Source: Gemmatimonadota bacterium
GTDB lineage: Bacteria; Gemmatimonadota; Gemmatimonadetes; Longimicrobiales; Gaopeijiaceae
Assembly (NCBI GenBank): GCA_028874995.1
Contig: JAPPGM010000102.1
Coordinates: 1 to 32,776 of the forward strand
Length of the DNA: 32,776 bases
Direction of reading: 5' to 3'
The notes beneath the pieces are model-generated. The model searched no databases and had not been told where the DNA came from. It worked only from the letters and a program-made list of their open reading frames with translations. The translations under genes were made by a program, and so were the position numbers. Position 1 is the first letter of the stretch. Every line of letters begins with the position of its first letter. Of this stretch, positions 2,129 through 27,192 are shown piece after piece.

Positions 2129-3780
2129 ACCCGGGTGACCGCGACATCATCGACCTCAGCATGAACGAGGGCGAACCGCCCAGCCGCGCCTGCCTCGAGG
2201 TCCTCGAACGGCACGGCCCAGCGCTGCTCCGCAAGTACGCCGACCCCGCCCCCCTTGAAGCCGCCTACGCGGCCTACCTCGGCACCGACCCCGCCAACGT
2301 CCTCGCCACGACCGGCGGCGACGACGCCATCGACCGCGTCTTCCGCGCCTTCCTCGCGCCGGGCCGGGAAATGGTCTTTCCGACCCCCACCTTCGAGATG
2401 GTCCCGGCGTGCGCGCGCATGGCCCGGGGGGACCTCGTCCCGATCGAGTACGACTGGGGCACGCTGCCGCACGACGACATCCTCGCCGCGGTGAACCAAC
2501 GGACCGGCGTCGTGGCAGTGCTCACCCCCGACAACCCCACCGGCTGCGCCTTCACCACCGAGTCCCTGCTCCGCCTCGCCGCCGCGCTCCCCCCCGAGGT
2601 CACCCTCATGGTGGACCTGGCCTACGCCGAGTTCGCCGACGAGGACCCCACCCCCGCCCTCCTCGAAGTCCCCCGCGCGATCATGATCCGCACGATGTCG
2701 AAGTCGTGGGGACTGGCCGGGCTGCGGGTCGGCTTCGCGGTGGGCGCGAAGGAGCGGATCGACGTGCTGCGCGGCTACGGCGGCCCCTACGCGCTGACCG
2801 GGCCCTCGATCGCGATCGCGCTGGACCGGCTGCGCAACGGCGTCGACGAGATGCGCGAGTTCGTGGAGTACATCCGCACCCGGCGCGAACGGCTGGACGC
2901 GCTGCTATGGGACGTCGGCGGTGTGCCCGGGCAGTCGCAAACGAACTTCGTGCTCTGCTCCTTCACGGACGCGCGCTGGATCCACAGGGGGATGGCCGCG
3001 CAGGGCGTGCTGGTGCGGTACTTCGCGCACCTGCCCGAGTACGTGCGCATCACCGTGCCGCGCGACGACGCCGAGTTCCGCCGCGTGGAGCGCGCGCTGA
3101 GGTGCCTCGACCGCCCCGAGGCGCTGCTCTTCGACATGGACGGGGTGCTGGCCGACGTGCGGCGCTCGTACCGCGAGGCGATCGTCCGCACCTGCGCCTC
3201 GTTCGGGGTGGAGGCCGGTCACGACCTGATCGAGGCCGTGAAGGCCGCCGGGCAGGCCAACGACGACTGGGCGGTGACGCACGGCGTGCTGGCCCGCGCC
3301 GGAGTGCGGGCCTCGCTGGAGGAGGTGACCGAGCGGTTCGAGGAGCTGTACCAGGGCACCGAGGCCGAACCGGGACTCCGCCGCCACGAGACGCTGATCC
3401 CCATGCGCGAACTGCTTGAGGGGCTGGCGCAGGTTTTCAAGCTGGGCGTCGTGACGGGGCGGCCGCGCGCGGACGCCGAACGCTTCCTGCGTGAGCACGG
3501 CGTGCGCGGCCTCTTCGGCGCCGTGGTCTGCCGCGAGGACGCGCCGCTCAAGCCGGATCCGGCGCCGGTGCGGCTCGCGCTGGAGCGCCTCGAGGTGCGG
3601 AGCGCGTGGATGCTGGGCGACACCCCCGACGACGTGCGGGCGGCGGTGGGGGCGGGGGTCGTGCCCGTGGGGGTGGTGCCGCCGGGGGGTGGGGAGACCG
3701 TCTGGACGGCGCTCGAAGAGGCGGGCGCCGCGCGGATCATGACAGCGGAACCCGACTTCGGAGGATTGTTCCATGGCTGA
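2125..3780 (+). CDS. hisC: Histidinol-phosphate aminotransferase fused to HAD phosphatase
   Basis: A 551-residue two-domain protein. Residues 1-330 are a fold-type I aminotransferase of the HisC group: D164 in MVDLAYAEF contacts the PLP ring, and K193 in RTMSKSWGLAG is the Schiff-base lysine. Residues 331-551 are a HAD hydrolase with all four motifs: DMDG (nucleophile D337, D339), T444 in VVTGRP, K476 in KPDP, and D499 in GDTPDD. HisC makes histidinol phosphate. The attached HAD is the obvious candidate for the following dephosphorylation, because the HisB here lacks the phosphatase half. HAD proteins of this subfamily are known in fusions with histidine enzymes, but the phosphatase assignment is inference. 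It overlaps hisG by 4 bp and hisB by 8 bp, so translation is likely coupled. Confidence 0.9.
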   Translation: MNPGDRDIIDLSMNEGEPPSRACLEVLERHGPALLRKYADPAPLEAAYAAYLGTDPANVLATTGGDDAIDRVFRAFLAPGREMVFPTPTFEMVPACARMARGDLVPIEYDWGTLPHDDILAAVNQRTGVVAVLTPDNPTGCAFTTESLLRLAAALPPEVTLMVDLAYAEFADEDPTPALLEVPRAIMIRTMSKSWGLAGLRVGFAVGAKERIDVLRGYGGPYALTGPSIAIALDRLRNGVDEMREFVEYIRTRRERLDALLWDVGGVPGQSQTNFVLCSFTDARWIHRGMAAQGVLVRYFAHLPEYVRITVPRDDAEFRRVERALRCLDRPEALLFDMDGVLADVRRSYREAIVRTCASFGVEAGHDLIEAVKAAGQANDDWAVTHGVLARAGVRASLEEVTERFEELYQGTEAEPGLRRHETLIPMRELLEGLAQVFKLGVVTGRPRADAERFLREHGVRGLFGAVVCREDAPLKPDPAPVRLALERLEVRSAWMLGDTPDDVRAAVGAGVVPVGVVPPGGGETVWTALEEAGAARIMTAEPDFGGLFHG

Positions 3781-14832: not shown

Positions 14833-17800
14833 CCGACCGTCTCGATCCAGTGGCGTGCGCGCTCGAATGGATATCCCGGCAGCGGGATCCGGCGCCGCGT
14901 CTCTCCCGCGAACAACCCGGCGAAGGATACCGGAAGTCCGGCCTGGTATGCCCTTGCGACCGACTCGGGGAATGAGGGATCCGTGTGTTCCTGCGCCCCG
15001 GGCCAGGCTGCCGGTTCGATGGGGCCGGGCGTCGCGTGCGGACCGATCTCCGCTACGAGGCTCACGTCCAACTCCGCCAATTTGCCGTTGCACCGGTGAA
15101 GTGGTTTCGGGGCGAGGAGCTGATCGCGCCAGCAATCCCAAGCGGGGGACTCGCCCGTGTTGATGGGTTGGCCGGTGGATTGGCTCAGGAGCGTCAGCGA
15201 CGGGGGCGAGGTTTCGATTGCCGCGTAGGTGGCTTCCATTTCCGCAAAGGGATCCTGTCCGGGTCCGGAGGGGTCGCCGGTCGGCATGGCGGCCGCCACA
15301 CGGGCTTTGGGCCGGGCCACCGTAGCGCCGCGGGTGGCGGCGAGGCGCAGTCCGTCTTCCAGGGTGAATACGCCGGCGGTCCATGCCGCGGCCAATTCGC
15401 CGACGCCCTCTCCCACGGCGACGGCGGGCCGGATGCCCACGCTGGCCCAGAGCGCGGTGAGCGCGCATTCCAGTGCGTAGAGGGCCGGCTGGGCCCACTC
15501 CGGGTCGTCCAGCCTTCCGTCCGTGCCGTTTCGGCCGAACATCACGTCGAGCAGGGACGTCCCGGCGCGCGCTTCCCGCAACACCGCGTCGCAGCGATCG
15601 AGGACGGCGCGCGCTACCGGTTCGCAATCGTAAACGTCCTTGCCCATGCCGACTCGTTCGCTTCCCTCGCCGACGTAGGCGAAGGCCAGCTTCCGGGGTG
15701 TGTTCGTCTCCGGGCCTCTCGCCTGGACGCCCGTCGGCCGCATGCCAGCGATTGCGCGCAGTTCCTCGCGCAATGATCCCGCGGTTTGAAAGGGAATGCC
15801 CGAGCGGTGGGCGAAGTGACTTCGTCCGACGCCCGCCGTCCAAGCCATGTCGGCGAGCAGCGATTCCATGGCGGCGCCGTTGGCGGACGGGACCGCCTCG
15901 CGTTCGTCCAGCCAGGCGAGATACCGGTTTGCCAACTCCCGCAACGCACCGGGGGACTTTCCGGAGAGCGGCAGGATTCGCGTGCCGCGCGGGGCCATGT
16001 CGGCGGGCGACAGGGGCAGCTCGGCCGTCCGTTCCGGCAGCCGTGCCGCGATCGTCCGTGCGGCACCGGCGGGCCAGGCCAGTCCCGCGACCCTCCCCGG
16101 GGTCCCATCCGGCTGTTCCGCGCGTTCGACCACGACGTGCGCGTTCGTCCCGGAGAGCCCGAACGAACTGACCCCCGCGCGGGGCGGACGATCGGCGTGG
16201 GAGGGCCATTCGGTATCCGCCGAGGTGACTCGCACCGGAAGCCGGTCCCACTCGAGATGGGGGTTCGGGTCGTGGAAGTGCAGCTGTCTCGGAATCCGGC
16301 CCTCGTTCATGGCGAGGACCGCCTTGATGAGGCTTGCGATGCCGGCGGCGCACTCAAGGTGGCCGATATTGGTCTTGACCGAGCCGATCAGCAGCGGGCG
16401 CTCCGAGTCCCGTCCGCGACCGTAGGCCGCCGCCGCCGCCTGCACCTCGATGGGATCGCCCAGATCGGATCCGACGCCGTTCGCCTCCAGGTAGTCCACC
16501 TCGCCCGGCGCTATTCCGGCACGGGCCAGTGCCTCTTCGATCACACGCTCCTGGGCGGGTCCGTTCGGGACCGTCAGTCCCGCGCTCGCCCCGTTCTGGT
16601 TCACCGCCGACCCGCGGATCACGCCCCAGATGCGGTCGCCGTCCGCCTCGGCCTCCGCCAACCGCTTGAGGACGACGACCCCACATCCCTCTCCCCGCAC
16701 GAAGCCGTCCGCCGCGGCGTCGAAGGTGCTGCAACGGCCGCGCTTCGACAGCAACCCCATCTCCGCCATGGCAGCCGAGACCTCGGGGTGCAGGATCGCG
16801 TTCACCCCTCCGACGAGGGCCAGCTCCACGTCATTTTGCCGGAGGGCGGAAACGGCCTGGTGCACAGCCGCCAGCGACGAAGCACAAGCGACGTCCACCG
16901 GCACGGCGGGCCCGGCCAGCCCGAGCACGAAAGCGATCCGTCCGGCGGTAACGCTGGGAGTGGTGCCCAGGTAGCCGTGGTGTTCGCCGGCTGCCAGGGC
17001 GAGATCACGATAGTCGCCGCTGGTGACACCGACGTACGCGCCCGTGGGGCTTCCGCGGAGCCCTTCCGGATCGATCCCCGCGTCCTCCAGCCCGTGCCAT
17101 GTCGTTTCCAGCAGGAGGCGCTGTCGGGGATCCATCGTGCGCGCCTCGATCGGCGGGATGCGGAAGAACCGGCCGTCGAACTTGTCGATGTCCTCGAGGA
17201 AAGCGCCGCGCCGGGAAACGGCGTCCGTCCCGCCGGGATCGCCGGCGACGCCGTGCCACGGACCTTCGTCTCGGCGCCCGTCGGTGACCAGGTCCGCTCC
17301 GGCCTCGAGTTGCCGCCAGAAGGCGGCGAGATCAGGCGCGCCGGGGAAGCGGCAGGCCATGCCCACAATCGCGATGGCGCCGCTCGCCGCCTGAATCGTG
17401 GGCGCGCGTGGCGGTTCGGGTGGAGCGGCTGGTGTGGGTGCCTCTCCGGATGGGCCACCGGGTGCCGGCGCGCCGCCGTCGACGACCAGTTCTCCGGCCA
17501 GATGGGCGGCGAGCGAGGCGATGTCCGGGTAGTCGAACATGAGCGTGTTGGGAGCCGTGTACGTTCCGGAGAAGGCCCGGTTGAGCCGGTTGCGCAGCTC
17601 CACCGCCATCAGGGAGTCCATCCCCAGGTCGAAGAAACCGATCGTCGGCGCCGGGGCCGACGGCAGCCGCAAGACGGCCTGCACCTCGCCCTGCAGGAAC
17701 GATACCAGGAGGTCCTCGCGTGCGGTGGCGGGCGTCTCTCCGAGTTGCGAGAGCACGTCCTTCGGGGCGGCCGACGCGTCCTCTCCGTCCTCCGAGTCCG

Positions 17801-17957
17801 TGGACAGCAATTCCTCCAGGAGTGGCGGACGCTCTTCCACCGCCTCCTCGAACACCGACCAGTCCATCGCCATGACGACCGAATTCGTGACATCCTGGCG
17901 CACCAGCCGTTCGAACGCCCTGATCCCCTGCTGTGGAGTGAACCAGCGGCCGCCCAA
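14829..17957 (-). CDS. Type I PKS, 3' part after frameshift: ACP, degenerate terminal KS-AT
   Basis: This is the continuation of the PKS begun at 25263. The nominal TTG at 17957 is just inside the end of the module 1 KR; real homology in this frame starts near 18014 (SEIGEAAEQRERID). In this ORF's numbering: KR tail 1-40; ACP about 80-155 with S115 in LGMDSL; KS 193-610 with Cys358 (VDVACASS) and H533 (NIGHLE), but the first His motif reads NGVGS with N493 in place of His. AT about 755-985: GQGSQ is GEGSE, GHSxGE is GEGVGE (nucleophile Ser851 replaced by Gly), and about 60 residues with the second catalytic His (the AFHS region) are missing. The protein ends right after the post-AT linker (PLPGYPFERARHW) with no ACP or thioesterase. 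It overlaps the permease start by 4 bp. Confidence 0.88.
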   Translation of the reverse strand: MGGRWFTPQQGIRAFERLVRQDVTNSVVMAMDWSVFEEAVEERPPLLEELLSTDSEDGEDASAAPKDVLSQLGETPATAREDLLVSFLQGEVQAVLRLPSAPAPTIGFFDLGMDSLMAVELRNRLNRAFSGTYTAPNTLMFDYPDIASLAAHLAGELVVDGGAPAPGGPSGEAPTPAAPPEPPRAPTIQAASGAIAIVGMACRFPGAPDLAAFWRQLEAGADLVTDGRRDEGPWHGVAGDPGGTDAVSRRGAFLEDIDKFDGRFFRIPPIEARTMDPRQRLLLETTWHGLEDAGIDPEGLRGSPTGAYVGVTSGDYRDLALAAGEHHGYLGTTPSVTAGRIAFVLGLAGPAVPVDVACASSLAAVHQAVSALRQNDVELALVGGVNAILHPEVSAAMAEMGLLSKRGRCSTFDAAADGFVRGEGCGVVVLKRLAEAEADGDRIWGVIRGSAVNQNGASAGLTVPNGPAQERVIEEALARAGIAPGEVDYLEANGVGSDLGDPIEVQAAAAAYGRGRDSERPLLIGSVKTNIGHLECAAGIASLIKAVLAMNEGRIPRQLHFHDPNPHLEWDRLPVRVTSADTEWPSHADRPPRAGVSSFGLSGTNAHVVVERAEQPDGTPGRVAGLAWPAGAARTIAARLPERTAELPLSPADMAPRGTRILPLSGKSPGALRELANRYLAWLDEREAVPSANGAAMESLLADMAWTAGVGRSHFAHRSGIPFQTAGSLREELRAIAGMRPTGVQARGPETNTPRKLAFAYVGEGSERVGMGKDVYDCEPVARAVLDRCDAVLREARAGTSLLDVMFGRNGTDGRLDDPEWAQPALYALECALTALWASVGIRPAVAVGEGVGELAAAWTAGVFTLEDGLRLAATRGATVARPKARVAAAMPTGDPSGPGQDPFAEMEATYAAIETSPPSLTLLSQSTGQPINTGESPAWDCWRDQLLAPKPLHRCNGKLAELDVSLVAEIGPHATPGPIEPAAWPGAQEHTDPSFPESVARAYQAGLPVSFAGLFAGETRRRIPLPGYPFERARHWIETVG

Positions 17958-20900
17958 CGCCGACCGCCTCTGATCGATGCGTTCCCGCTGCTCGGCCGCC
18001 TCGCCGATCTCCGACCACGATGGCCTGTCCCGCGAGACCCAGCGCGCGCCGGTGGCCCGCCAGCTGGTCGAGGAAGGCGTTGGCGGAGGCGTGGTTCGAC
18101 TGGCCCGGATTGCCCATCACGCCGACGCGGCTGGAGAAGAGGCAGAACATGTCCAGGTCGCGGTCGAGGGTGGCCCGGTGCAGATGCCACGCACCCAGAA
18201 TCTTCGGCCACAGCACCTGTTCGAACCGGTCCCAGCTCTGGTTGGTCAGCGCGCCGTCGGAGAGCACGCCCACGCTGTGGATCACCCCTGCGAGCGGCGG
18301 CAGCTCCCGGTCCACGCGGTCCAGCATTCGGTCCACCGCGGCCGTGTCGGTGATGTCCGCCAGCTCCACCTCGACGGTGACGCCGCGGGCTCTGAGCCCG
18401 TTGATGATCTCTTCGGCGGCGGCGTCCGGGCCACGGCGCCCATTCAGCACGATCGCGCCCGCCCCCTGGTCCGCGAGCCACACGGCCACCGCGCACCCGA
18501 TTCCCCCCAGCCCCCCCGTCACCAGGTAGGTCCCGTCCTGCCGCAGCCCACCGCTCCGGAGCGGCGGCGTGGTCACCACGATCTTGCCCAGGTGTCGCGC
18601 GGCGCGCATGAAGCTGAGCGCGGCTCCCGCCTCGGCCAGCGGCCACCGGCTGTGCACGATCGGTTGCAGTTCTCCCGTGGAGATGCGGGCCATCACCTCG
18701 CGCAGGACCCTCCCCGCGTGTGCGGGGTCCGTCTTCTTCACGACGTCCAGCTCCAGGATGTGGTAGGGCACGTCGGGTCTCACCTTGGCCATTTCCTCGT
18801 AGCTGAGGATGTCCCGTCTGGCCATTTCCACGAACCGGCCGCCGTGCTTCAGACAGGCCAGACTCGCCTCGATGAACCCCTCGCTCGTCAGGCTGTTCAG
18901 CACCACGTCGACGCCTTCGCCGCCCGTCGCCTCCAGGATCTCTTCGCCGAAAGCCGTCTGGCGGCTGTCGAAGATGTGCTCCACGCCCAGCGACCGCAGA
19001 TACGCCTGTTTGGGGGCGCTCGCAGTCGCGAAGACCTCCGCCCCCGCGGCCTGCACCCACTGAATGGCGGCGAGGCCGACGCCTCCCGCGCCCGCGTGGA
19101 TGAGTACGCGCTCGCCGGGCTCGAGTCCCGTGAACTCGAAGGACAGCGCGGCCGACACGAAAGCACTCGGCACCGCCCCGAGACCGGTCACGGAAAACCC
19201 GTCCGGCGCCGGGGCCACCAGCTCTTCGTGCGTCACCATCTCCGGTCCGAAGGCGCCGAATCCCATGCCCACCACGTGATCGCCGACCGCGACCTTCGAC
19301 ACCTCGGCACCCACGTCGATGATGTGCCCGCACATCTCCCTTCCCAGCAGACCCTCCTCGATGAAGCCCAGCGAACGGAACACGTCCCAGAAATTGAGCC
19401 CGGCCGCCTCGACCGCGACGCGCACTTCGTGCGGCTCCAGAGGGCGCGCCTGCAGAGGCTGGACGTGCGGCCGGTCGAAGACACCGCCCGGATCCGGCGC
19501 CAGCACCCAGTTCGACTCCTCGGGCAGGGCCAGCCGTTCGGCCCCGGACTCGGCGCGCACCACCCGCGCCACGCGGCGGCGTCCCAGCCGATACGCGATG
19601 TGGTTCTCGGGGTCGGGGTAGAGGAGTTCGTTCGCGAGGTCGGGTTCGGGCGCCATTCGCCCCGGGTCCAGGTCGATCATTCTCGGTTGCAGATGCGGCG
19701 CTTCGCGGGCCACGCCCTTGCCGAAGCCCCACAGGGTGGCCCCGGAGAGCTCGCCGCCGCGCTCGCGCTCCAGCACCTGCGCCCCCCTGGTGACGAACCA
19801 CACGCCCTTTTCGGGGGTAGCGCCGGAGTCGGTGACGCCCTGCACCATGGCCAGGGCGCTCGCCCCCGCCCGGGTCACGTCGTGGGCCATCTCGTCGGTC
19901 GTCGCCGCTTCGCCACGGCCGTCGAGGGCCAGGAGGTGAACCACGCCCGCCAGGGGGACGTCGTCCGGGAGACTCTCCAGGAGCGAGCGCCACGACTCGC
20001 GCTGGTCCATGGCCACGGTTGCGTGGCGAACCCCCGCCCCCGCGCCCTCCGCCAGTCCCCCGTCCACCGAATCCCCGCCCACCACCACCACCGTCTGATT
20101 CCGCGCGGCCAGGTCACCCGCCAGCTCCGCCGCCACCCCACCCCCGTCCGCCGCCAGCACCCACACGCCCGCCGGCTCCCGCACCTCCGCCGGCCCCCGC
20201 GCCACGATCACCCCCTTGTCCGGCACCCTGGTCAGGTCGGACTCGTCCACCCCCACCACCTCCACCTCCCCGAAGCCCGCGTCGCCGAGCGCGCGCCGCC
20301 ACACGGCCGGGCTCGCCAGCGCGTGGTGCGGCCGGTAGTCGTCGGCGAAGCGCCACCAGCCGTCGAGCTGCCCGAAGGTCAGGTCCATCCAGCCCAGCCC
20401 GCTCAGGTTCTCCAGCGCGACCAGCTGCCCCGAGGGGGCGAGCAGCTTCCTGCAGTGGCCCAGCGTCTCCTCCAGGTACCGGGTCGCGTGTAGCACGTTC
20501 GAGGCGAGCAGCAGGTCGTAGCCGTGCTCGTCGAAGCCCTGCGCGACCGGGTCCTTCTCGATGTCCAGCGGACGGTACTCGATGCATCCGCCGCCGTCGC
20601 CGAACCGCGCCTCCGCCTCGGCGAAGAAGCCCGCGGAGATGTCGGTGTACATGTAGTCGAACTGACCCTCCGGCAGCAGCGGCAGGACCGACGCGGTGGC
20701 CGACCCCGTGCCCGCCCCCACCTCGATCACCCTGAGCCGCCGTCCCTTCGGCAGCGCGTCCACGAGCGCCTGGACCGCCACTTCGAGCATCCGGTTCGCC
20801 GCGCGCGCCACCGGCGCCTTCAGGTACAGATCGGCCGCGGTCGGTTCGCCGCTGCTGAACAGGAGAGTCAGCGGATCCTCCCGGCCGCGAAGCACCTCGG

Positions 20901-23900
20901 CCAGGGCGCCGCCCGAGCGCCGGAACAGCCCGATCTCGGTCAGGCCGTGCGAATACCGTCCCGCCATGACCTCGTGGTGGCCGCTGGGGTCGTGCGGTAT
21001 CGCTTTGGGCCACGTATCCCCCGATCCGACGACCACGCGGAACCCGCCGTCATCCTCCTCGTACAGCACACCCGCCTTGGCCGCCATCTCGAGCATGCGG
21101 CGAAACAGCCGACTGTGGTCGGCCATCACACGGAGCTGCTCTCGCAGCGTCTCGGACCGCACCACCTCGCCGGCCGTGCGTTTCCAGCCCAGCGTGTCCA
21201 GGGTGGCGACCGCGTACGACCACGACCAGTACTCCAGGTCCGTCAGCAGGGCGTTCCGGTCGTCGGGATCGACACCGGCCTCGACCAGGTACTCCGCCAG
21301 GAGCCGGGCACCGGCCTTCACCGATCCCGGATCCGGGAAGAAGTCGGCCGAGGGCATCCCCTCCGGAAGCGCCCGCTCGCGCCACACCACCTCGTACAAC
21401 AGATCCTTGACGCTTTCGCCCGCCGAGAGCAGCGCAGCCCGCGTGGCGCGCTTGATCGTGTACCCGTCCAACCCGCCGAGAAGAGACCCGTTCAGGTCGT
21501 AGATGCGAAGTTCGCCCGTCAGCACCTCGGGGGGCTCGCCCTCCTGCGCATCGGCCGCGCGGGACGCGTCGCTCATGCGAACGTGACAGACGACCCGGTC
21601 CGGCAGCCTGCCCGTAGTCAGCCAGAGCCGCTCCCAGCCGAAGGGCAGATAGGTGACCGAGCCATGAGGTCCGTCCAGGTTGCGCGCCGAGCCCACAACC
21701 TGGAAGCAGCCGTCGAGCACCAGGGGATGCACATCCAGTTCGTTCCGGCCGAGATCCTCCGGGAAGGCCACCTCGCCCATTGCCTCGCCCGGCCCGGTCC
21801 AGGCCCTGGCGAGCGTTTGGAAGGACGGACCCAGGTCGACCCCCGTCTCCAGCCTGGCGCGGTAGTAGCCCGCCACGTCCACCGGCGACAGCCGAGCCTT
21901 CAAACCCTCCAGATCGATACGCCCGTCGGCCTCCCGTACGGCGGTGCCCGGCGCGACGTGACCCTCGACGTGAACCACCCACTCCCCCTCGCTCCCCTTG
22001 CTGAAGATCCGGAAATCGCGCGTCGCCGTACCCTCGGAGGCGTCGAGCACCATTTGCAGGGTGCGGCCGGCGTCACCGCTTCCGTCTTCGGAGCCGTCCT
22101 CCGGGAAGACCAGCGCATTGTGCAGCTGCATCTCCTCCACGACCACGGGGCCGCGCCCGCCGGTACGCGATACCGCCGCCGCCATGGCCCCGTACAGCGC
22201 CCCCGGCACCACCACCCGGCGGTACACCCTGTGGTCGTCCAGCCACGCGGGTTCCGCGGGAAACACCTCGGTCTCGAAGGTCGTCTCGCCGCCGGCCGAC
22301 TCGTGGCGCGTTCCCAGCAGGGGATGGTCCACGCGGCCACGCCGCCGCCTCGGCGCGTCCAGCCAGTGCCGGGTCCGCTGGAACGGGTATCCCGGCAGCG
22401 AAATCCGCCGTCTCGACTCCCCGGCGAAGAGCCCCTCGAAGCGAACCGGCAGGCCTGCCTCGTACGCCTCCGCGACCGCGCGGACAAAGTCACCTGCACC
22501 ACCCGCGAACGGGTCGTCCGCCGACGGCGCCTGCAAGCTTGCCTGCACCCCCGGGGCCTCGACCGCCTCGGGCCAGGCGGTAAGCGCCATCGGGGCCAGC
22601 ACCGAGCGCGGACCGATCTCGACCAGCAGGTCCACACCGAGACCCGCCACCGTGCGGACGCCGCTCGAGAACGCGACCGCTTCCCGGGCATGCCGCCGCC
22701 AGTACGAACCGTCCAGTGCCTGGTCCGGCCCCACCGGGCGCCCCGTCAGGTTGCTCACCAGGGTCAGCGAGGGCGGCGCGACCGCCACACCATCCAGCGA
22801 GGCCTCGAGCGCGTCCAGGATCGGGTCGACCAAAGCGCTGTGGAAGGCCTTGGTCGTGTTCAGCCGCCGGACCCGGATCTCCTCCGATTCGAACCGTTTC
22901 GATAGGGCTTCGACAGCATCGACGGGGCCGCTCACAACCTGGTGCGCCCCATTGTCGCCCGAAACGCTGAGCCCCACACCGCCGGATGTCGCGTTCCAGT
23001 CCGCGACCGCCGCCGACACTCTGTCCGGCGGCGCGAAGACCGCCGCCATCGCGCCCTCTTCCATGCCGGACATCAAGGCGCCGCGGGTGCAGGCGAACCG
23101 CATGCCGTCCTCGAGGCTGAACACTCCCGCCGCCTGGGCCGCCGCGATCTCCCCGACGCTGTGCCCCAGGACCACGTCGGGGCGGATGCCCACACTCGCC
23201 CACAGGGCCGTCAACGCGGACTCGATCGTATAGAGGGCCGGCTGCTCCCAGGCCGTGTCACCCAGGTCGCCGTTTGCGTCGTCGCGGCCGAGCATCACGT
23301 CGAGGAGCGAGGTCCGCCGTTCTTCCCGGAACACAGCCTCACAACGGTCCATGACCGCCCGCGCGACCGGTTCGCTTTCGTAGAGTGCCCGTCCCATGCC
23401 GGCCCACTGGCTCCCCTGTCCGGTATACGCGAACGCGATCCGGGTCGCCGTCCCGCGCGTCGGGCGATCGCCTGTCCCGGCCACGGCCTCCAGCCCTTCG
23501 CGCAGCGATTCGGTGTCCCGAAAGACCACTCCCGCGCGATCGTCGAAGTGGCTCCGCCCCACGCCAGCGGTCCACGCCATGTCCGAAAGCACCGCTGCCG
23601 AAACCGCGTCCGCATCCGACAGCTCGCCCACCCGCTCGTCGAGCCACGCCAGGTAACGCCCAGCGAGTTCGCGCAGCGCTACCTCCGACTTGCCCGACAG
23701 TGGCAGCAGTCGGGTGCCGCGCGGCTGGATCCCCGGTTCCGGCACCCTGGAATCCACGTCAGCTCTGCTCTGCTCCGACGTTGCCGAATCCGCGGGGACT
23801 TCGGTCCCAAGCTCCAACCCGACCGACTCCGCGCCAGCTCTGGGCCCCGGTTCGAACCCGGCCGACTCCGCGTCGGCGCCGAGCCCCCGAACCGCCACCC

Positions 23901-25263
23901 GCTGCGGAGCTCCCACCGGCGTGAATCCTCGTGGGGACCCTCCGTCGGGACCGCAATACTCCTCCACCACCAGATGCGCATTCGTCCCCGAAATCCCGAA
24001 ACAGTTCACCCCCGCGACGCGCGACCGCCCCGGCCGATCCGGCCACTCCATCATCTCCGACGTCACCTGCAACGGCAGATTGTCCCAATCCAGCGCCGGG
24101 TTCGGATCCCGGAAGTGCAGGTGCTTCGGAATCACGCCCCGCTTCACCACCAGCGCCGCCTTGATCAGACCGACCACGCCCGCCGCCGACTCCAGGTGGC
24201 CGACATTCGTCTTCACGGACCCGATCAGGAGCGGCCGGTCCGCCTCGCGTCCCTCGCAGTAGACGTGGGACACGGCGTTGATTTCGATCGGATCGCCCAC
24301 CGTGGTTCCCGTTCCGTGCGCCTCGATGTAGTCCACCTCCAGCGGATCGACGCCGGCCTGCGACAGCGCGTCCTCCATGACCTGTTCGAGCGCGGGCGTG
24401 TTCGGCACCGTCAGACCGACACCCGTCCCGCCGTGGTTCACCACCGAGCCCCGGATCACGGCCCAGATCCGGTCGCCGTCCGCCTCCGCTTCGCTCAGTC
24501 GCTTCAGCACCACCACCCCGCACCCCTCCGCCCGCACGTACCCATTCGCGGCCGCGTCGAAGGTTTTGCACTGCCCATCGGGGGACAGCATCATCGCGTC
24601 CGCGCGGAGTTCGTAGATGCGCCCGTTCAGAATCGCCTGCACCCCGCCCGCGATCGCCAGGTTGGCCTTGCCCTGCTGCAGATCAGCCACCGCGTCGTTG
24701 ATCGCCACCATCGCCGACGCGCACGCCGCGTCGACCGCCTTGGCGGGGCCCGTAAGCCCCAGCACGAAGGAGACCCGCCCGGCCGTTCCGTTCAGGTTGG
24801 TGCCGCTCAGCGCGTAGAGGCACGACGCGGCCTCGGAGGGCTTCGCCGAGTCCACCACCAACATGCGGTACTCGTCGTTGCTGATCCCGCTGTAAACCCC
24901 GGTGCGGCTCCCCCTGATGCGCTCCGGGTCGATCCCCGCGTCCTCGAGCGCCTGCCAGGTCACCTCCAGCATCATGCGCTGCTGCGGGTCCAGGAGCTGG
25001 GCCTCGACCGGGGAGATGCGGAAGAACGCGTCGTCGAACAGTTCGATGTCGTCGACGAAGGCGCCGTAGCGGCACCCCTCGCTCTGCACGGCTTCGTCCC
25101 CGAAGATGAGCCCCCAGCGCCCGACTCCCGAACCCGGGATTCCCTCGGTGACGGCATTGCCGCCTTCCCGCAGCAGGCGCCAGAAGGCTTCGATATCGTT
25201 CGCGCCGGGGAACCGGCAGGCCATGCCCACGATCGCGATGGGCTCGTTGCTTGATTTGGGCAT
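17332..25263 (-). CDS. Type I PKS, 5' part: KS-AT-DH-cMT-ER-KR (frameshift near 18015)
   Basis: Numbered from ATG 25263-25261 (MPKSSNEPIAIVGMACRFPG). KS 6-432 with Cys181, His316 (HGTGT) and His356. AT 605-897 with GHSVGE (Ser702) and AFHS (His808), the latter suggesting malonyl-CoA. DH 975-1270: His1011 and DGCFQ Asp1184; the usual Gly of HxxxGxxxxP is Arg. C-methyltransferase about 1285-1680, SAM motif EVGAGTG near 1514. ER 1920-2232 with HAGAGGVG. KR from 2240, TGGLGGIG; the catalytic Tyr position is His2391 (GQSNHASAN). Near residue 2416 the frame breaks: true homology shifts to the frame of the 14829-17957 segment, and the part of this ORF from about 18014 to 17332 is out-of-frame. Restored, the gene spans 25263-14829, about 3480 residues. 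It would make a reduced, alpha-methylated acyl chain. Upstream starts (to 25377) lie outside the KS homology. Confidence 0.88.
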   Translation of the reverse strand: MPKSSNEPIAIVGMACRFPGANDIEAFWRLLREGGNAVTEGIPGSGVGRWGLIFGDEAVQSEGCRYGAFVDDIELFDDAFFRISPVEAQLLDPQQRMMLEVTWQALEDAGIDPERIRGSRTGVYSGISNDEYRMLVVDSAKPSEAASCLYALSGTNLNGTAGRVSFVLGLTGPAKAVDAACASAMVAINDAVADLQQGKANLAIAGGVQAILNGRIYELRADAMMLSPDGQCKTFDAAANGYVRAEGCGVVVLKRLSEAEADGDRIWAVIRGSVVNHGGTGVGLTVPNTPALEQVMEDALSQAGVDPLEVDYIEAHGTGTTVGDPIEINAVSHVYCEGREADRPLLIGSVKTNVGHLESAAGVVGLIKAALVVKRGVIPKHLHFRDPNPALDWDNLPLQVTSEMMEWPDRPGRSRVAGVNCFGISGTNAHLVVEEYCGPDGGSPRGFTPVGAPQRVAVRGLGADAESAGFEPGPRAGAESVGLELGTEVPADSATSEQSRADVDSRVPEPGIQPRGTRLLPLSGKSEVALRELAGRYLAWLDERVGELSDADAVSAAVLSDMAWTAGVGRSHFDDRAGVVFRDTESLREGLEAVAGTGDRPTRGTATRIAFAYTGQGSQWAGMGRALYESEPVARAVMDRCEAVFREERRTSLLDVMLGRDDANGDLGDTAWEQPALYTIESALTALWASVGIRPDVVLGHSVGEIAAAQAAGVFSLEDGMRFACTRGALMSGMEEGAMAAVFAPPDRVSAAVADWNATSGGVGLSVSGDNGAHQVVSGPVDAVEALSKRFESEEIRVRRLNTTKAFHSALVDPILDALEASLDGVAVAPPSLTLVSNLTGRPVGPDQALDGSYWRRHAREAVAFSSGVRTVAGLGVDLLVEIGPRSVLAPMALTAWPEAVEAPGVQASLQAPSADDPFAGGAGDFVRAVAEAYEAGLPVRFEGLFAGESRRRISLPGYPFQRTRHWLDAPRRRRGRVDHPLLGTRHESAGGETTFETEVFPAEPAWLDDHRVYRRVVVPGALYGAMAAAVSRTGGRGPVVVEEMQLHNALVFPEDGSEDGSGDAGRTLQMVLDASEGTATRDFRIFSKGSEGEWVVHVEGHVAPGTAVREADGRIDLEGLKARLSPVDVAGYYRARLETGVDLGPSFQTLARAWTGPGEAMGEVAFPEDLGRNELDVHPLVLDGCFQVVGSARNLDGPHGSVTYLPFGWERLWLTTGRLPDRVVCHVRMSDASRAADAQEGEPPEVLTGELRIYDLNGSLLGGLDGYTIKRATRAALLSAGESVKDLLYEVVWRERALPEGMPSADFFPDPGSVKAGARLLAEYLVEAGVDPDDRNALLTDLEYWSWSYAVATLDTLGWKRTAGEVVRSETLREQLRVMADHSRLFRRMLEMAAKAGVLYEEDDGGFRVVVGSGDTWPKAIPHDPSGHHEVMAGRYSHGLTEIGLFRRSGGALAEVLRGREDPLTLLFSSGEPTAADLYLKAPVARAANRMLEVAVQALVDALPKGRRLRVIEVGAGTGSATASVLPLLPEGQFDYMYTDISAGFFAEAEARFGDGGGCIEYRPLDIEKDPVAQGFDEHGYDLLLASNVLHATRYLEETLGHCRKLLAPSGQLVALENLSGLGWMDLTFGQLDGWWRFADDYRPHHALASPAVWRRALGDAGFGEVEVVGVDESDLTRVPDKGVIVARGPAEVREPAGVWVLAADGGGVAAELAGDLAARNQTVVVVGGDSVDGGLAEGAGAGVRHATVAMDQRESWRSLLESLPDDVPLAGVVHLLALDGRGEAATTDEMAHDVTRAGASALAMVQGVTDSGATPEKGVWFVTRGAQVLERERGGELSGATLWGFGKGVAREAPHLQPRMIDLDPGRMAPEPDLANELLYPDPENHIAYRLGRRRVARVVRAESGAERLALPEESNWVLAPDPGGVFDRPHVQPLQARPLEPHEVRVAVEAAGLNFWDVFRSLGFIEEGLLGREMCGHIIDVGAEVSKVAVGDHVVGMGFGAFGPEMVTHEELVAPAPDGFSVTGLGAVPSAFVSAALSFEFTGLEPGERVLIHAGAGGVGLAAIQWVQAAGAEVFATASAPKQAYLRSLGVEHIFDSRQTAFGEEILEATGGEGVDVVLNSLTSEGFIEASLACLKHGGRFVEMARRDILSYEEMAKVRPDVPYHILELDVVKKTDPAHAGRVLREVMARISTGELQPIVHSRWPLAEAGAALSFMRAARHLGKIVVTTPPLRSGGLRQDGTYLVTGGLGGIGCAVAVWLADQGAGAIVLNGRRGPDAAAEEIINGLRARGVTVEVELADITDTAAVDRMLDRVDRELPPLAGVIHSVGVLSDGALTNQSWDRFEQVLWPKILGAWHLHRATLDRDLDMFCLFSSRVGVMGNPGQSNHASANAFLDQLAGHRRALGLAGQAIVVGDRRGGRAAGTHRSEAVGVGRPLVHSTAGDQGVRTAGAPGCHEFGRHGDGLVGVRGGGGRASATPGGIAVHGLGGRRGRVGRPEGRALATRRDARHRTRGPPGIVPAGRGAGRLAAAVGPGADDRFLRPGDGLPDGGGAAQPAQPGLLRNVHGSQHAHVRLPGHRLARRPSGRRTGRRRRRAGTRWPIRRGTHTSRSTRTATRAHDSGGERRHRDCGHGLPLPRRA

Positions 25264-25428
25264 TGTTCTAGAGTTGAATTTGTCCGGCAATTGGTCCACG
25301 ACCCTGTTCCTCGGAAGATAGCGTTCGCTGCATCCGGCGACAGCCGTGGCCGGACATCGGTGGGCCTGATCACCCACAGTGGTCGAATCGGGAGTTGCTC
25401 ACCAGATTGGAGTTGCCTTGCGGGAACC

Positions 25429-27192
25429 ATGCCGTCCGGACCGAACAGCCGTGCAGACACCTTTGACATGCCCTACCTGATCGCCTCCCTCGGAGCCCTC
25501 GCGGCCGGACCGCTCCTGCACGCGGGTGCCGGCCATCGGCGCGGCTTCGCTCCCGTGCTCGACGGCCTGTCCAGGACCGCGATCCCCGGGCTGGTCTTCC
25601 TGGCGTTCGTTCCCGCGGCGGTCGGCGAGGGGGACTGGTTCATCCTGCTGGCGCTCGCGGCCGGGTTCCTGATCCCCGTTGCGATCGAAAGAACCTCGAG
25701 ACGGGCCACCCGGCCGACCCACCGCCTGGCCCTGCTGGCCGGCCTGTCCGGATTCGTGGTTCATACGGGACTCGACGGCGCGGTCCTGGCCACGGTTCCG
25801 CTCGACGCCGCCCCGTCGTTCCCCATGGCCATCGTGCTGCACCGGCTGCCGGTGGGCGTCGCGGTCTGGTGGCTGGTGGCCCGGGAGATCGACCGCCGGG
25901 CCGGCATTGCCGCGCTGGGGGCGCTCATGCTCGCGACGGTGGGCGGGTATCTGTTCGGAGTCCTGGTGGGCGGAGCGGTATCCGATTCCCCGGCGCTGAC
26001 GCTCTACCAGGCCGTCGTGGCGGGTTCGCTCGTGCATGTCGTGGTCCACCAGCATGGAGCGGCCGCCAGTCCGGCCGACCGCCGCCGCGAGGGATGGGGC
26101 GCGATTCTGGCGCTGACGCTGCTCCTGGCCGTGTTCGTGATCGGTTCGGACGCCGATGCCGGCGGACCGGCGGCCTTCGTGTCGCGCCTGTACGTGCTCA
26201 GCGCCGAAAGCGCACCCGCCCTTCTGCTGGCCTACCTCTTCGCGGGGCTGCTCAGCGCGTTTCTGCCGCAGAGGTCGGTGCGGTGGATGGAAAAGGGCGG
26301 AGGAGTCTCCCAGTCCGTCCGCGGAATGGCGATCGGTCTTCCCTTTCCGATCTGCTCCTGCGGAGTCGTGCCGCTTTACCGCAGCCTGATCCAGCGGGGC
26401 GCCCCGCCGGCCGCGGCGATGGCGTTCCTGGTGGCCACCCCGGAGCTCGGTCTGGACGCGGTGCTGCTCTCGATCCCGCTGCTCGGGCCCCAGGTGACGG
26501 TCCTGCGGCTGGTCACGGCGGCTCTGGTAGCGATGCTGGTGGGGTGGTGGGTGGGGGGAAGGTTGAAGAAGGCGGAGCGTGCCGACGAGTGGGTCGGCGT
26601 GCCGGGGGAGACGCCGAGCGTCGGCCGGCGCCTGGTCGCCGCGCTGCGAACCGGGACTGGGGACGTGGTCGACCATACGGCTCCCTGGATCGTGCTGGGG
26701 CTGGGGGTGGCCGCCCTGGTGACGCCCTTCCTGGAGAGCGGGTGGCTGGGCAGCCTGCCTCCGGTGGCCGATGTCTTCCTCTTCGCCCTGCTGGGCTTCC
26801 CGACCTACGTCTGCGCCGCCTCGGCCACGCCGCTGGTCGCCGCGTTTCTGGCGACGGGACTCTCCCCGGGGGCCGGAATCGCGTTCCTCATCACGGGACC
26901 GGCCACCAACATCTCGACCCTGGGCCTGGTCAGCAGCCTGCACGGGCGCCGCGCGGCGATCGCCTTCGCCCTGGTCATGGTGACCCTGGCGGTGACCTCC
27001 GGCATAGCGATCAACACCGCATTCGGGGCGCTGTCGGTGCCGTCTCTCGCGACGCTGATCGAGGAGGCTCCGAGTCTGCTCCAGCAGGGCAGCCTGGTTC
27101 TACTCGCCGCTCTCTTCCTCCGCTCGGTGGTGCGGCGTGGGCCGCGGGCCTTCGCGGGGGAGTTGCGGGAGGGGCTTGGCTGGGCGCACTAG
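25429..27192 (+). CDS. ZIP-like and ArsP-like (SO_0444-type) fused metal permease
   Basis: A 587-residue membrane protein from ATG 25429 (another ATG at 25468). Residues 14-240 resemble a ZIP metal transporter: HTGLDG (112-117, compare HNxxDG) and LHRLPVG (137-143, compare HExPEG), with HVVVHQH at 203-209. Residues 255-587 are a permease of the DUF318/ArsP type, with the diagnostic PICSCG at 307-312, ATPELGLDA (336-344), and the second repeat CAASATPLVAAF with GPATNIS (490-496). The cysteine motif is characteristic of SO_0444-like Cu/Zn efflux and ArsP permeases. Transport of a soft metal or metalloid across the inner membrane is therefore likely, with direction and substrate unknown. The gene is divergent from the PKS across a 165-bp gap and convergent with the FMN reductase. 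Confidence 0.8.
   Translation: MPSGPNSRADTFDMPYLIASLGALAAGPLLHAGAGHRRGFAPVLDGLSRTAIPGLVFLAFVPAAVGEGDWFILLALAAGFLIPVAIERTSRRATRPTHRLALLAGLSGFVVHTGLDGAVLATVPLDAAPSFPMAIVLHRLPVGVAVWWLVAREIDRRAGIAALGALMLATVGGYLFGVLVGGAVSDSPALTLYQAVVAGSLVHVVVHQHGAAASPADRRREGWGAILALTLLLAVFVIGSDADAGGPAAFVSRLYVLSAESAPALLLAYLFAGLLSAFLPQRSVRWMEKGGGVSQSVRGMAIGLPFPICSCGVVPLYRSLIQRGAPPAAAMAFLVATPELGLDAVLLSIPLLGPQVTVLRLVTAALVAMLVGWWVGGRLKKAERADEWVGVPGETPSVGRRLVAALRTGTGDVVDHTAPWIVLGLGVAALVTPFLESGWLGSLPPVADVFLFALLGFPTYVCAASATPLVAAFLATGLSPGAGIAFLITGPATNISTLGLVSSLHGRRAAIAFALVMVTLAVTSGIAINTAFGALSVPSLATLIEEAPSLLQQGSLVLLAALFLRSVVRRGPRAFAGELREGLGWAH

Follow-up and report, generated by a model that had tools for sequence, protein, structure and literature searches.

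The window analyzed here is a 32,776-nucleotide stretch of contig JAPPGM010000102.1 from a Gemmatimonadota bacterium (GenBank assembly GCA_028874995.1). It encodes a protein of 574 amino acids in which a ZIP-like N half is joined to a permease-like C half (Table 1). The four motifs from which a sequence-only reading had deduced a fusion of two transporters, HTGLDG, LHRLPVG, PICSCG, and GPATN, indeed all fall within one open frame. The start that it used, 25429, is an upstream in-frame ATG, and ATG 25468 is the most likely start. In the two nearest sister species (L051 and L052), a one-base gap between both ATG positions places the upstream ATG out of frame, and comparison with their DNA shows that conservation sets in exactly at 25468; homologs were placed with starts at the equivalent position. 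The region upstream of the fusion gene contains one weak 9-bp inverted repeat and no recognizable operator. The neighbors of the gene are an FMN reductase and an AMP-binding enzyme, and a 2681-residue frame with polyketide-synthase-like motifs recognized by eye (17332-25377, minus strand) starts near it and runs divergently. No metal gene was found beside the fusion gene, and with neighbors of these kinds nothing local points to metals.

Table 1. Features of the fusion gene and its product, with positions in the window
Feature	Position	Strand	Basis
Fusion CDS, 574 aa + stop	25468..27192	+	Start placed by homologs
N half, residues 1-231, divergent ZIP-like domain, eight helices in model	25468..26160	+	
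Glu74, aligned with BbZIP D144 (metal-release side); E in 40/42 fusions	25687..25689	+	ZIP-profile alignments
HTGLDG, residues 99-104, TM4 metal motif; H99 = BbZIP H177, D103 = BbZIP E181	25762..25779	+	
LHRLPVG, residues 124-130, TM5 motif; H125 = BbZIP Q207, R126 = D208 (M2), V129 = E211 (M1 ligand lost)	25837..25857	+	
GSLVHVVVH, TM7; H190 (41/42 fusions), H194 (40/42, = BbZIP H275)	26023..26049	+	
C half, residues 232-574, ArsP_1 permease, SO_0444-like	26161..27189	+	
PICSCG, residues 294-299; C296, C298 in 42/42 fusions (alignment A1), 54/55 and 55/55 in wider set	26347..26364	+	
VDHTAPW; D402 in 55/55, H403 in 52/55 fused rows	26668..26688	+	
YVCAAS; C449 in 55/55 fused rows	26806..26823	+	
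GPATN permease motif, residues 477-481	26896..26910	+	
His492; 55/55 fused rows, 2/18 unfused-labeled rows, both (L069, L078) cut at contig ends	26941..26943	+	

The C half matches the ArsP_1 family (PF03773; E = 1e-40, 140.2 bits against a cut-off of 32.3) and is the sole PF03773 match in the window genome. It also covers NF033936, the 351-residue NCBIfam model for SO_0444 Cu/Zn efflux proteins, with the PICSCG and GPATN motifs in common. At 203.4 bits, its score lies below the cut-off of 300, so we regard it as related to the SO_0444 family without filing it as a member. It scores better against this Cu/Zn efflux model than against SaoE. According to PMC3219624, Shewanella needs SO_0444 to grow when stressed by Zn or Cu. 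In the full-length model (pLDDT 85.1, pTM 0.84), the C half aligns best with ArsB (Z 13.5), YdaH (13.2), NaCT (12.2), and other structures of the ion-transporter superfamily; the overall fold is alike, whereas identity is 8-12% and families and substrates differ. His492 is found only in fused rows and in the cut genes L069 and L078. Among the 18 rows labeled unfused in our C-half tree, Asp402 occurs only in L151 and the cut genes L069 and L078, and His403 only in the cut genes and in L029 and L030; with the cut genes set apart, this amounts to one and two of 16 unfused rows, respectively. A plasmid search with the C half returned four records, all distant permeases, and one with the N half of L098, a Myxococcales fusion, found none.

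The N half of the window protein has no Pfam match up to E = 1 and no match in a PDB sequence search, and a PDB search with the N-half profile gave nothing useful. Its relationship to ZIP transporters emerges from comparisons of profiles and structures. Among 44 aligned N-domains (fused and free-standing, the window's included), 23 are matched by the ZIP family model PF02535 at E <= 1, the best at 4e-11; the best match, L098, keeps HRLPEG and scores 43.1 bits against a cut-off of 35.1. A profile of ordinary ZIPs was made from 16 sequences of this phylum, selected through their TM4/TM5 motifs, the picking motif admitting no Arg at the M2 position and requiring E, H, or Q at the Glu position. 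An hhalign comparison of this profile with the N-domain profiles gives a probability of 98% and pairwise E values of 4e-13 and 1e-13. The ZIP profile matches 39 of the 44 N-domains at E <= 1e-3, a level reached by none of 44 reversed sequences, 44 shuffled sequences, or 42 C halves. In the opposite direction, the N-domain profile matches frames in 12 ZIP loci with E down to 4e-14, and across the 9445 reading frames in the loci examined its matches are limited to fusion, free-standing, and ZIP loci.

Structure prediction, one of the checks proposed in the sequence-only reading, yields an eight-helix AlphaFold2 model of the N domain (pLDDT 92). In Foldseek, the first ten rows for this model are all BbZIP at a probability of 1.00, with TM values of 0.33-0.49; the eleventh has a probability of 0.13, and the other 40 rows listed are all at or below 0.28. 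In the VIA structure comparison, the first eight entries are BbZIP (Z 8.3-9.2) and the next, unrelated, entry reaches 7.6; for a helical protein, these Z values by themselves would be weak support. Structure and sequence evidence together therefore lead us to take the ZIP relationship of the N half as shown. It is a divergent ZIP relative that adopts, in the predicted model and at moderate Z, an eight-helix ZIP-like fold, and we do not file it as a canonical ZIP because the M1 Glu of the TM5 "PEG/PHE" motif is lost. One chain thus holds two different transport folds, as had been proposed, the C half being of the ion-transporter-superfamily type. The N half is also distinct from the normal N-terminus of SO_0444 permeases, an origin that the earlier reading had left open: the C half alone covers the SO_0444 model, and an annotated SO_0444 protein from Aureibacter lacks such a half.

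ZIP-profile alignments supplied the residue equivalences with BbZIP given in Table 1. Passages in PMC9278863 list H177, E181, Q207, and E211 as the BbZIP zinc ligands and place a Lys at M2 of hZIP2, and a passage in PMC11549095 reports that disruption of M2 in BbZIP lowers activity only modestly, with M1 taken as the transport site. The His plus Asp/Glu of TM4 and the His/Gln of TM5 required for M1 are present in all 42 aligned fusions, with His99 and His125 invariant and residue 103 an Asp in 39 and a Glu in 3. Residue 126 is Arg in 32 and Gln in 10, and residue 129 is Val, Ile, or Leu in 41 and Glu in one; the window protein, with Val129, lacks the M1 Glu (or His/Gln) of TM5. Conservation extends to the free-standing domains: His99, Gly104, and His125 are invariant in all 44, and His190 and His194 are nearly so. 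The earlier claim that an Arg replaces the usual metal-binding Glu stands in part, in that Arg126 is present but sits at M2 (BbZIP D208), whereas the lost M1 Glu (BbZIP E211) is Val129. Arg126 is also less remarkable than first thought, as Lys occupies that position in 8 of the 16 ordinary ZIPs, whose picking motif did not admit Arg; because this motif constrained both the M2 and the Glu position, the 16 are uninformative about the rate of variation at either. Judged from the alignments, it is the missing M1 Glu that sets the domain further apart from ZIPs.

The TM7-TM8 loop contains 6-24 His in 13 of the 42 fusions, a content that would suit a cytosolic receiver, and at most three in the other 29, the window's included. 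In the window protein the loop is Arg-rich, in agreement with the cytoplasmic side expected from ZIP topology. We considered whether unfused SO_0444 permeases were the source of the His-rich loop in the ZIP half and rejected this: 17 of the 18 rows labeled unfused have 0-3 His in the central loop, and the loop of the Aureibacter protein is not His-rich. The one row with many (19) is L151 (G061 contig 21, 1221-4706), from a genome of the window genus. Here a second permease, SO_0444-like, comes after a ZnuA-like gene; besides its His-rich central loop, it has a long extension at the C-terminus. This locus was set aside as a possible contaminant, its contig being 4.7 kb long and also carrying a transposase-like frame.

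The N domain also exists without a permease. Among 24 genomes from other genera of the same family with a match, the match is confined to the N domain in 21, is the fusion in two, and is a partial C half in one. We took 20 free-standing genes, 16 from the same family (L101-L114, L118, L119) and four from a second family (L115-L117, L120). Their products have 198-225 aa, are 35-43% identical over the domain, and share the conserved His with the fusion. They end after TM7, without the eighth ZIP helix, in a short His-containing tail, and 19 of the 20 have at least four His in the last 25 residues. Among the 12 free-standing loci surveyed for neighbors, a CDF gene lies upstream in L116 and L119 and FeoB within 4 kb in L105 and L107; the scanned neighbor in L103 is a multicopper oxidase.

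A search with the fusion protein over one genome per species, in which four of the six probe peptides lay in the C half, retrieved 50 relatives. By profile, 48 carry both halves, including L092 and L093, in which a contig end leaves the N half incomplete; the remaining two (L069 and L078) are cut at contig ends before it. The fusion is found in Gemmatimonadota, Acidobacteriota, Myxococcota, Pseudomonadota, and others, with named isolates in Sulfidibacter corallicola and Archangium violaceum; many other bearers are MAGs, for which mis-binning is possible. Within the window genus, the fusion is matched in 21 of 23 genomes; in one of these the match is divided between two contigs, and in another it is truncated by a contig end. 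Two candidate exceptions proved only apparent, since the N-half-only gene in G253 stops at a contig end and both pieces of the split copy in G053 lie at contig ends.

In a C-half tree of 73 rows (55 fused and 18 labeled unfused), the fused rows group with five unfused-labeled ones, namely, two genes cut at contig ends, L029, L030, and one very long branch. Support for the branch holding the fused rows is 93/77, under the tool's mark, and four label changes were counted, some of them cut genes. The tree therefore allows, without proving, one origin of the fusion. The permeases L029 and L030 branch within the fusion clade, yet the ZIP-like profile no longer finds a match in their N-terminal part; they have likely lost the N domain. 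The junction is nearly fixed in length, with 37-38 residues between the conserved Gly of TM8 and the conserved Ala of the first permease helix in 36 of 42 fusions (range 34-43). In seven species pairs, dN/dS values indicate purifying selection on both halves, less tight on the N half (0.18-0.37) than on the C half (0.07-0.14), with N-half dN 1.4-3.1 times C-half dN. By these comparisons the fusion is old and under selection; conserved as it is in several phyla, it probably serves as a functional device for balancing metals and is not an accident. Two sequence variants deserve mention. In genome G197 (L060, 4050-4395; also L153), a short tandem remnant lies ahead of the complete fusion gene. 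It corresponds to residues 1-64 followed by residues 210-252, as would be seen in a duplicate whose central part had been deleted. A fusion from a Pseudomonadota MAG (L100, 5908-8433; 842 residues) has LHTLPVG for LHRLPVG, SSC for CSC, and a very long His/Gly-rich C-terminal tail.

In a survey of the neighborhoods of 22 distant fusion loci, 10 have a metal-linked neighbor by profile above cut-off, a frequency taken from fusion loci alone. ArsR-type neighbors occur in L068, L071, L074, L082, and L099, those of L068 and L071 also exceeding the ArsR/SmtB metalloregulator cut-off; Fur-family neighbors in L094, L098, and L100; COG0523-type GTPases in L082, the same locus as one ArsR, and L088, the latter over the ZigA cut-off; and a ferritin in L075. 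We take ZigA to be tied to Zur, and its presence in L088 points to zinc shortage, not excess. Of the 12 loci without such a neighbor above cut-off, seven (L072, L073, L077, L079, L080, L081, and L083) had one scanned neighbor each and nothing metal-related among them (that of L083 is MnmE), and L076, L085, L090, and L095 lay outside the scan. In L084, from an Aminicenantes MAG, a MerC-like gene (2992-3417) directly follows the fusion gene and scores 26.7 bits against a cut-off of 27.6. Between the ArsR and fusion genes of L068 (5481-5819) and L071 (5450-5788) lies a gene for a 113-residue His-rich protein (HGPDCGH...), neither copy of which has an NCBIfam match; that of L068 also has no Pfam match.

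The wider genome adds a further line of context. Profile searches of the window genome (96.7% complete, 191 contigs) gave no PF02535, ZnuA, or CDF match, and Nramp matches are present. Across the 23 genomes of the genus, ZnuA is matched in 1, CDF in 15, and Nramp in 20. This setting makes it plausible that the fusion is a zinc gene; the direction of transport is not given by it.

From the whole we infer a metal substrate, outward movement by the C half, and capture or gating by the ZIP half. We see an even chance that this conserved one-chain fusion uses its divergent ZIP-type domain to capture metal and to load or gate an SO_0444-like ArsP_1 permease exporting a soft metal. Outward movement of a soft metal ion, with zinc or copper as the first candidates, would fall to the C half. 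The ZIP half would capture cytosolic metal through H99, D/E103, and H125, in about a third of the fusions perhaps aided by the His-rich TM7-TM8 loop, and load or gate the permease, so that export would respond to the metal level. That the halves are coupled or regulated, as the earlier reading suggested, would fit the metal-related neighbors of distant relatives and the strict conservation. The Arg at the second site and the missing M1 Glu suggest, at the level of sequence, weaker, single-ion binding for sensing or hand-over and not high-affinity import. An export role for the ZIP half is a guess, because ZIPs are importers. More tentatively, and at somewhat less than an even chance, the protein may represent a new class of metal homeostat made of two elevator-type carriers of unrelated folds, in which the ZIP domain acts as a cytosolic metal receiver that sets exporter activity. 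The one-ion site, the Arg in the second site, and the His-rich loop of some members would then provide direct post-translational control of export in one polypeptide.

Of the alternatives, the one that fares best, which we nevertheless think unlikely, is that both halves are working carriers, the ZIP half importing and the C half exporting the same or different metals. Such an exchanger or two-way homeostat may also be a main zinc entry in the genus. In favor of this alternative, the fusions retain the M1 ligands H99, D/E103, and H125 as well as E74 and H194 on the release side, no PF02535, ZnuA, or CDF match was found in the window genome, the fusion is matched in 21 of 23 genus genomes and ZnuA in only one, and the ZigA beside one fusion would fit a zinc-shortage role. 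However, Val, Ile, or Leu takes the place of the M1 Glu in 41 of 42 fusions and M2 has given way to Arg or Gln, Nramp matches are present and importers of other families are possible, and simultaneous import and export would be futile without regulation. Loss of the M1 Glu could instead mean that the ZIP half does not transport and is only a scaffold, dimerization, or membrane-packing domain for the permease, a reading that we judge improbable. The higher dN of the N half in all seven pairs and the failure of L029 and L030 to match the N-domain profile are in keeping with it, but a pure scaffold would not need His99, Gly104, and His125, invariant in 44 of 44 domains, or the nearly invariant His190 and His194, and free-standing copies occur, almost all with His-rich ends.

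It is quite improbable that the C half is an ArsP-like permease for organoarsenicals or other oxyanions or thiols, with a fusion that has nothing to do with Zn or Cu. The Cu/Zn efflux model scores above SaoE, the partner domain is of a metal-binding type, and ArsR, Fur, and ZigA neighbors occur; the top fold match to an ArsB, which might favor an arsenical substrate, is tied with YdaH and common to many transporters of the same superfamily, leaving on that side the three conserved Cys of the C half and the scope of PF03773, which we take to include organoarsenical ArsP. A chance resemblance to ZIPs, the N half being in truth some unrelated membrane domain, could be suggested by the missing Pfam match of the window sequence and the moderate structural Z but is scarcely credible given the reciprocal profile matches, the pairwise hhalign E of 1e-13, L098 above the PF02535 cut-off, and ten BbZIP rows at 1.00 in Foldseek against at most 0.28 for the 40 others listed; nor are the motifs themselves due to chance, because their residues are conserved in 42 aligned fusions, purifying selection acts on both halves in the seven pairs, and the reversed, shuffled, and C-half controls were passed.

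The fusion is real and conserved and is built from two known kinds of carrier. With BbZIP and other ZIPs (SLC39, PF02535) it shares the eight-helix fold, the H..DG of TM4, the H..P of TM5, and the release-side acidic and His residues; it differs in having no direct Pfam match, Val for the M1 Glu, Arg for the M2 Asp, and an attached permease. From the SO_0444 family it is set apart by its lower score and the added ZIP half. Our literature search, with most subscription journals outside it, found no title or abstract opening naming a ZIP-permease fusion. One paper containing the words ZIP, fusion, and ArsP (PMC7997004) was set aside, as ArsP and fusion stand in unrelated passages in the text retrieved.

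Importer-type and exporter-type metal carriers are usually encoded by separate genes and balanced by transcription. Retained across phyla with a linker of almost constant length, such a fusion would offer a natural test of whether two transport folds are directly coupled. That a ZIP-like domain persists although its metal site is altered is relevant to the question of which ZIP ligands are needed for which purpose, and the fusion might explain zinc handling in a genome without recognizable ZIP, ZnuA, or CDF matches.
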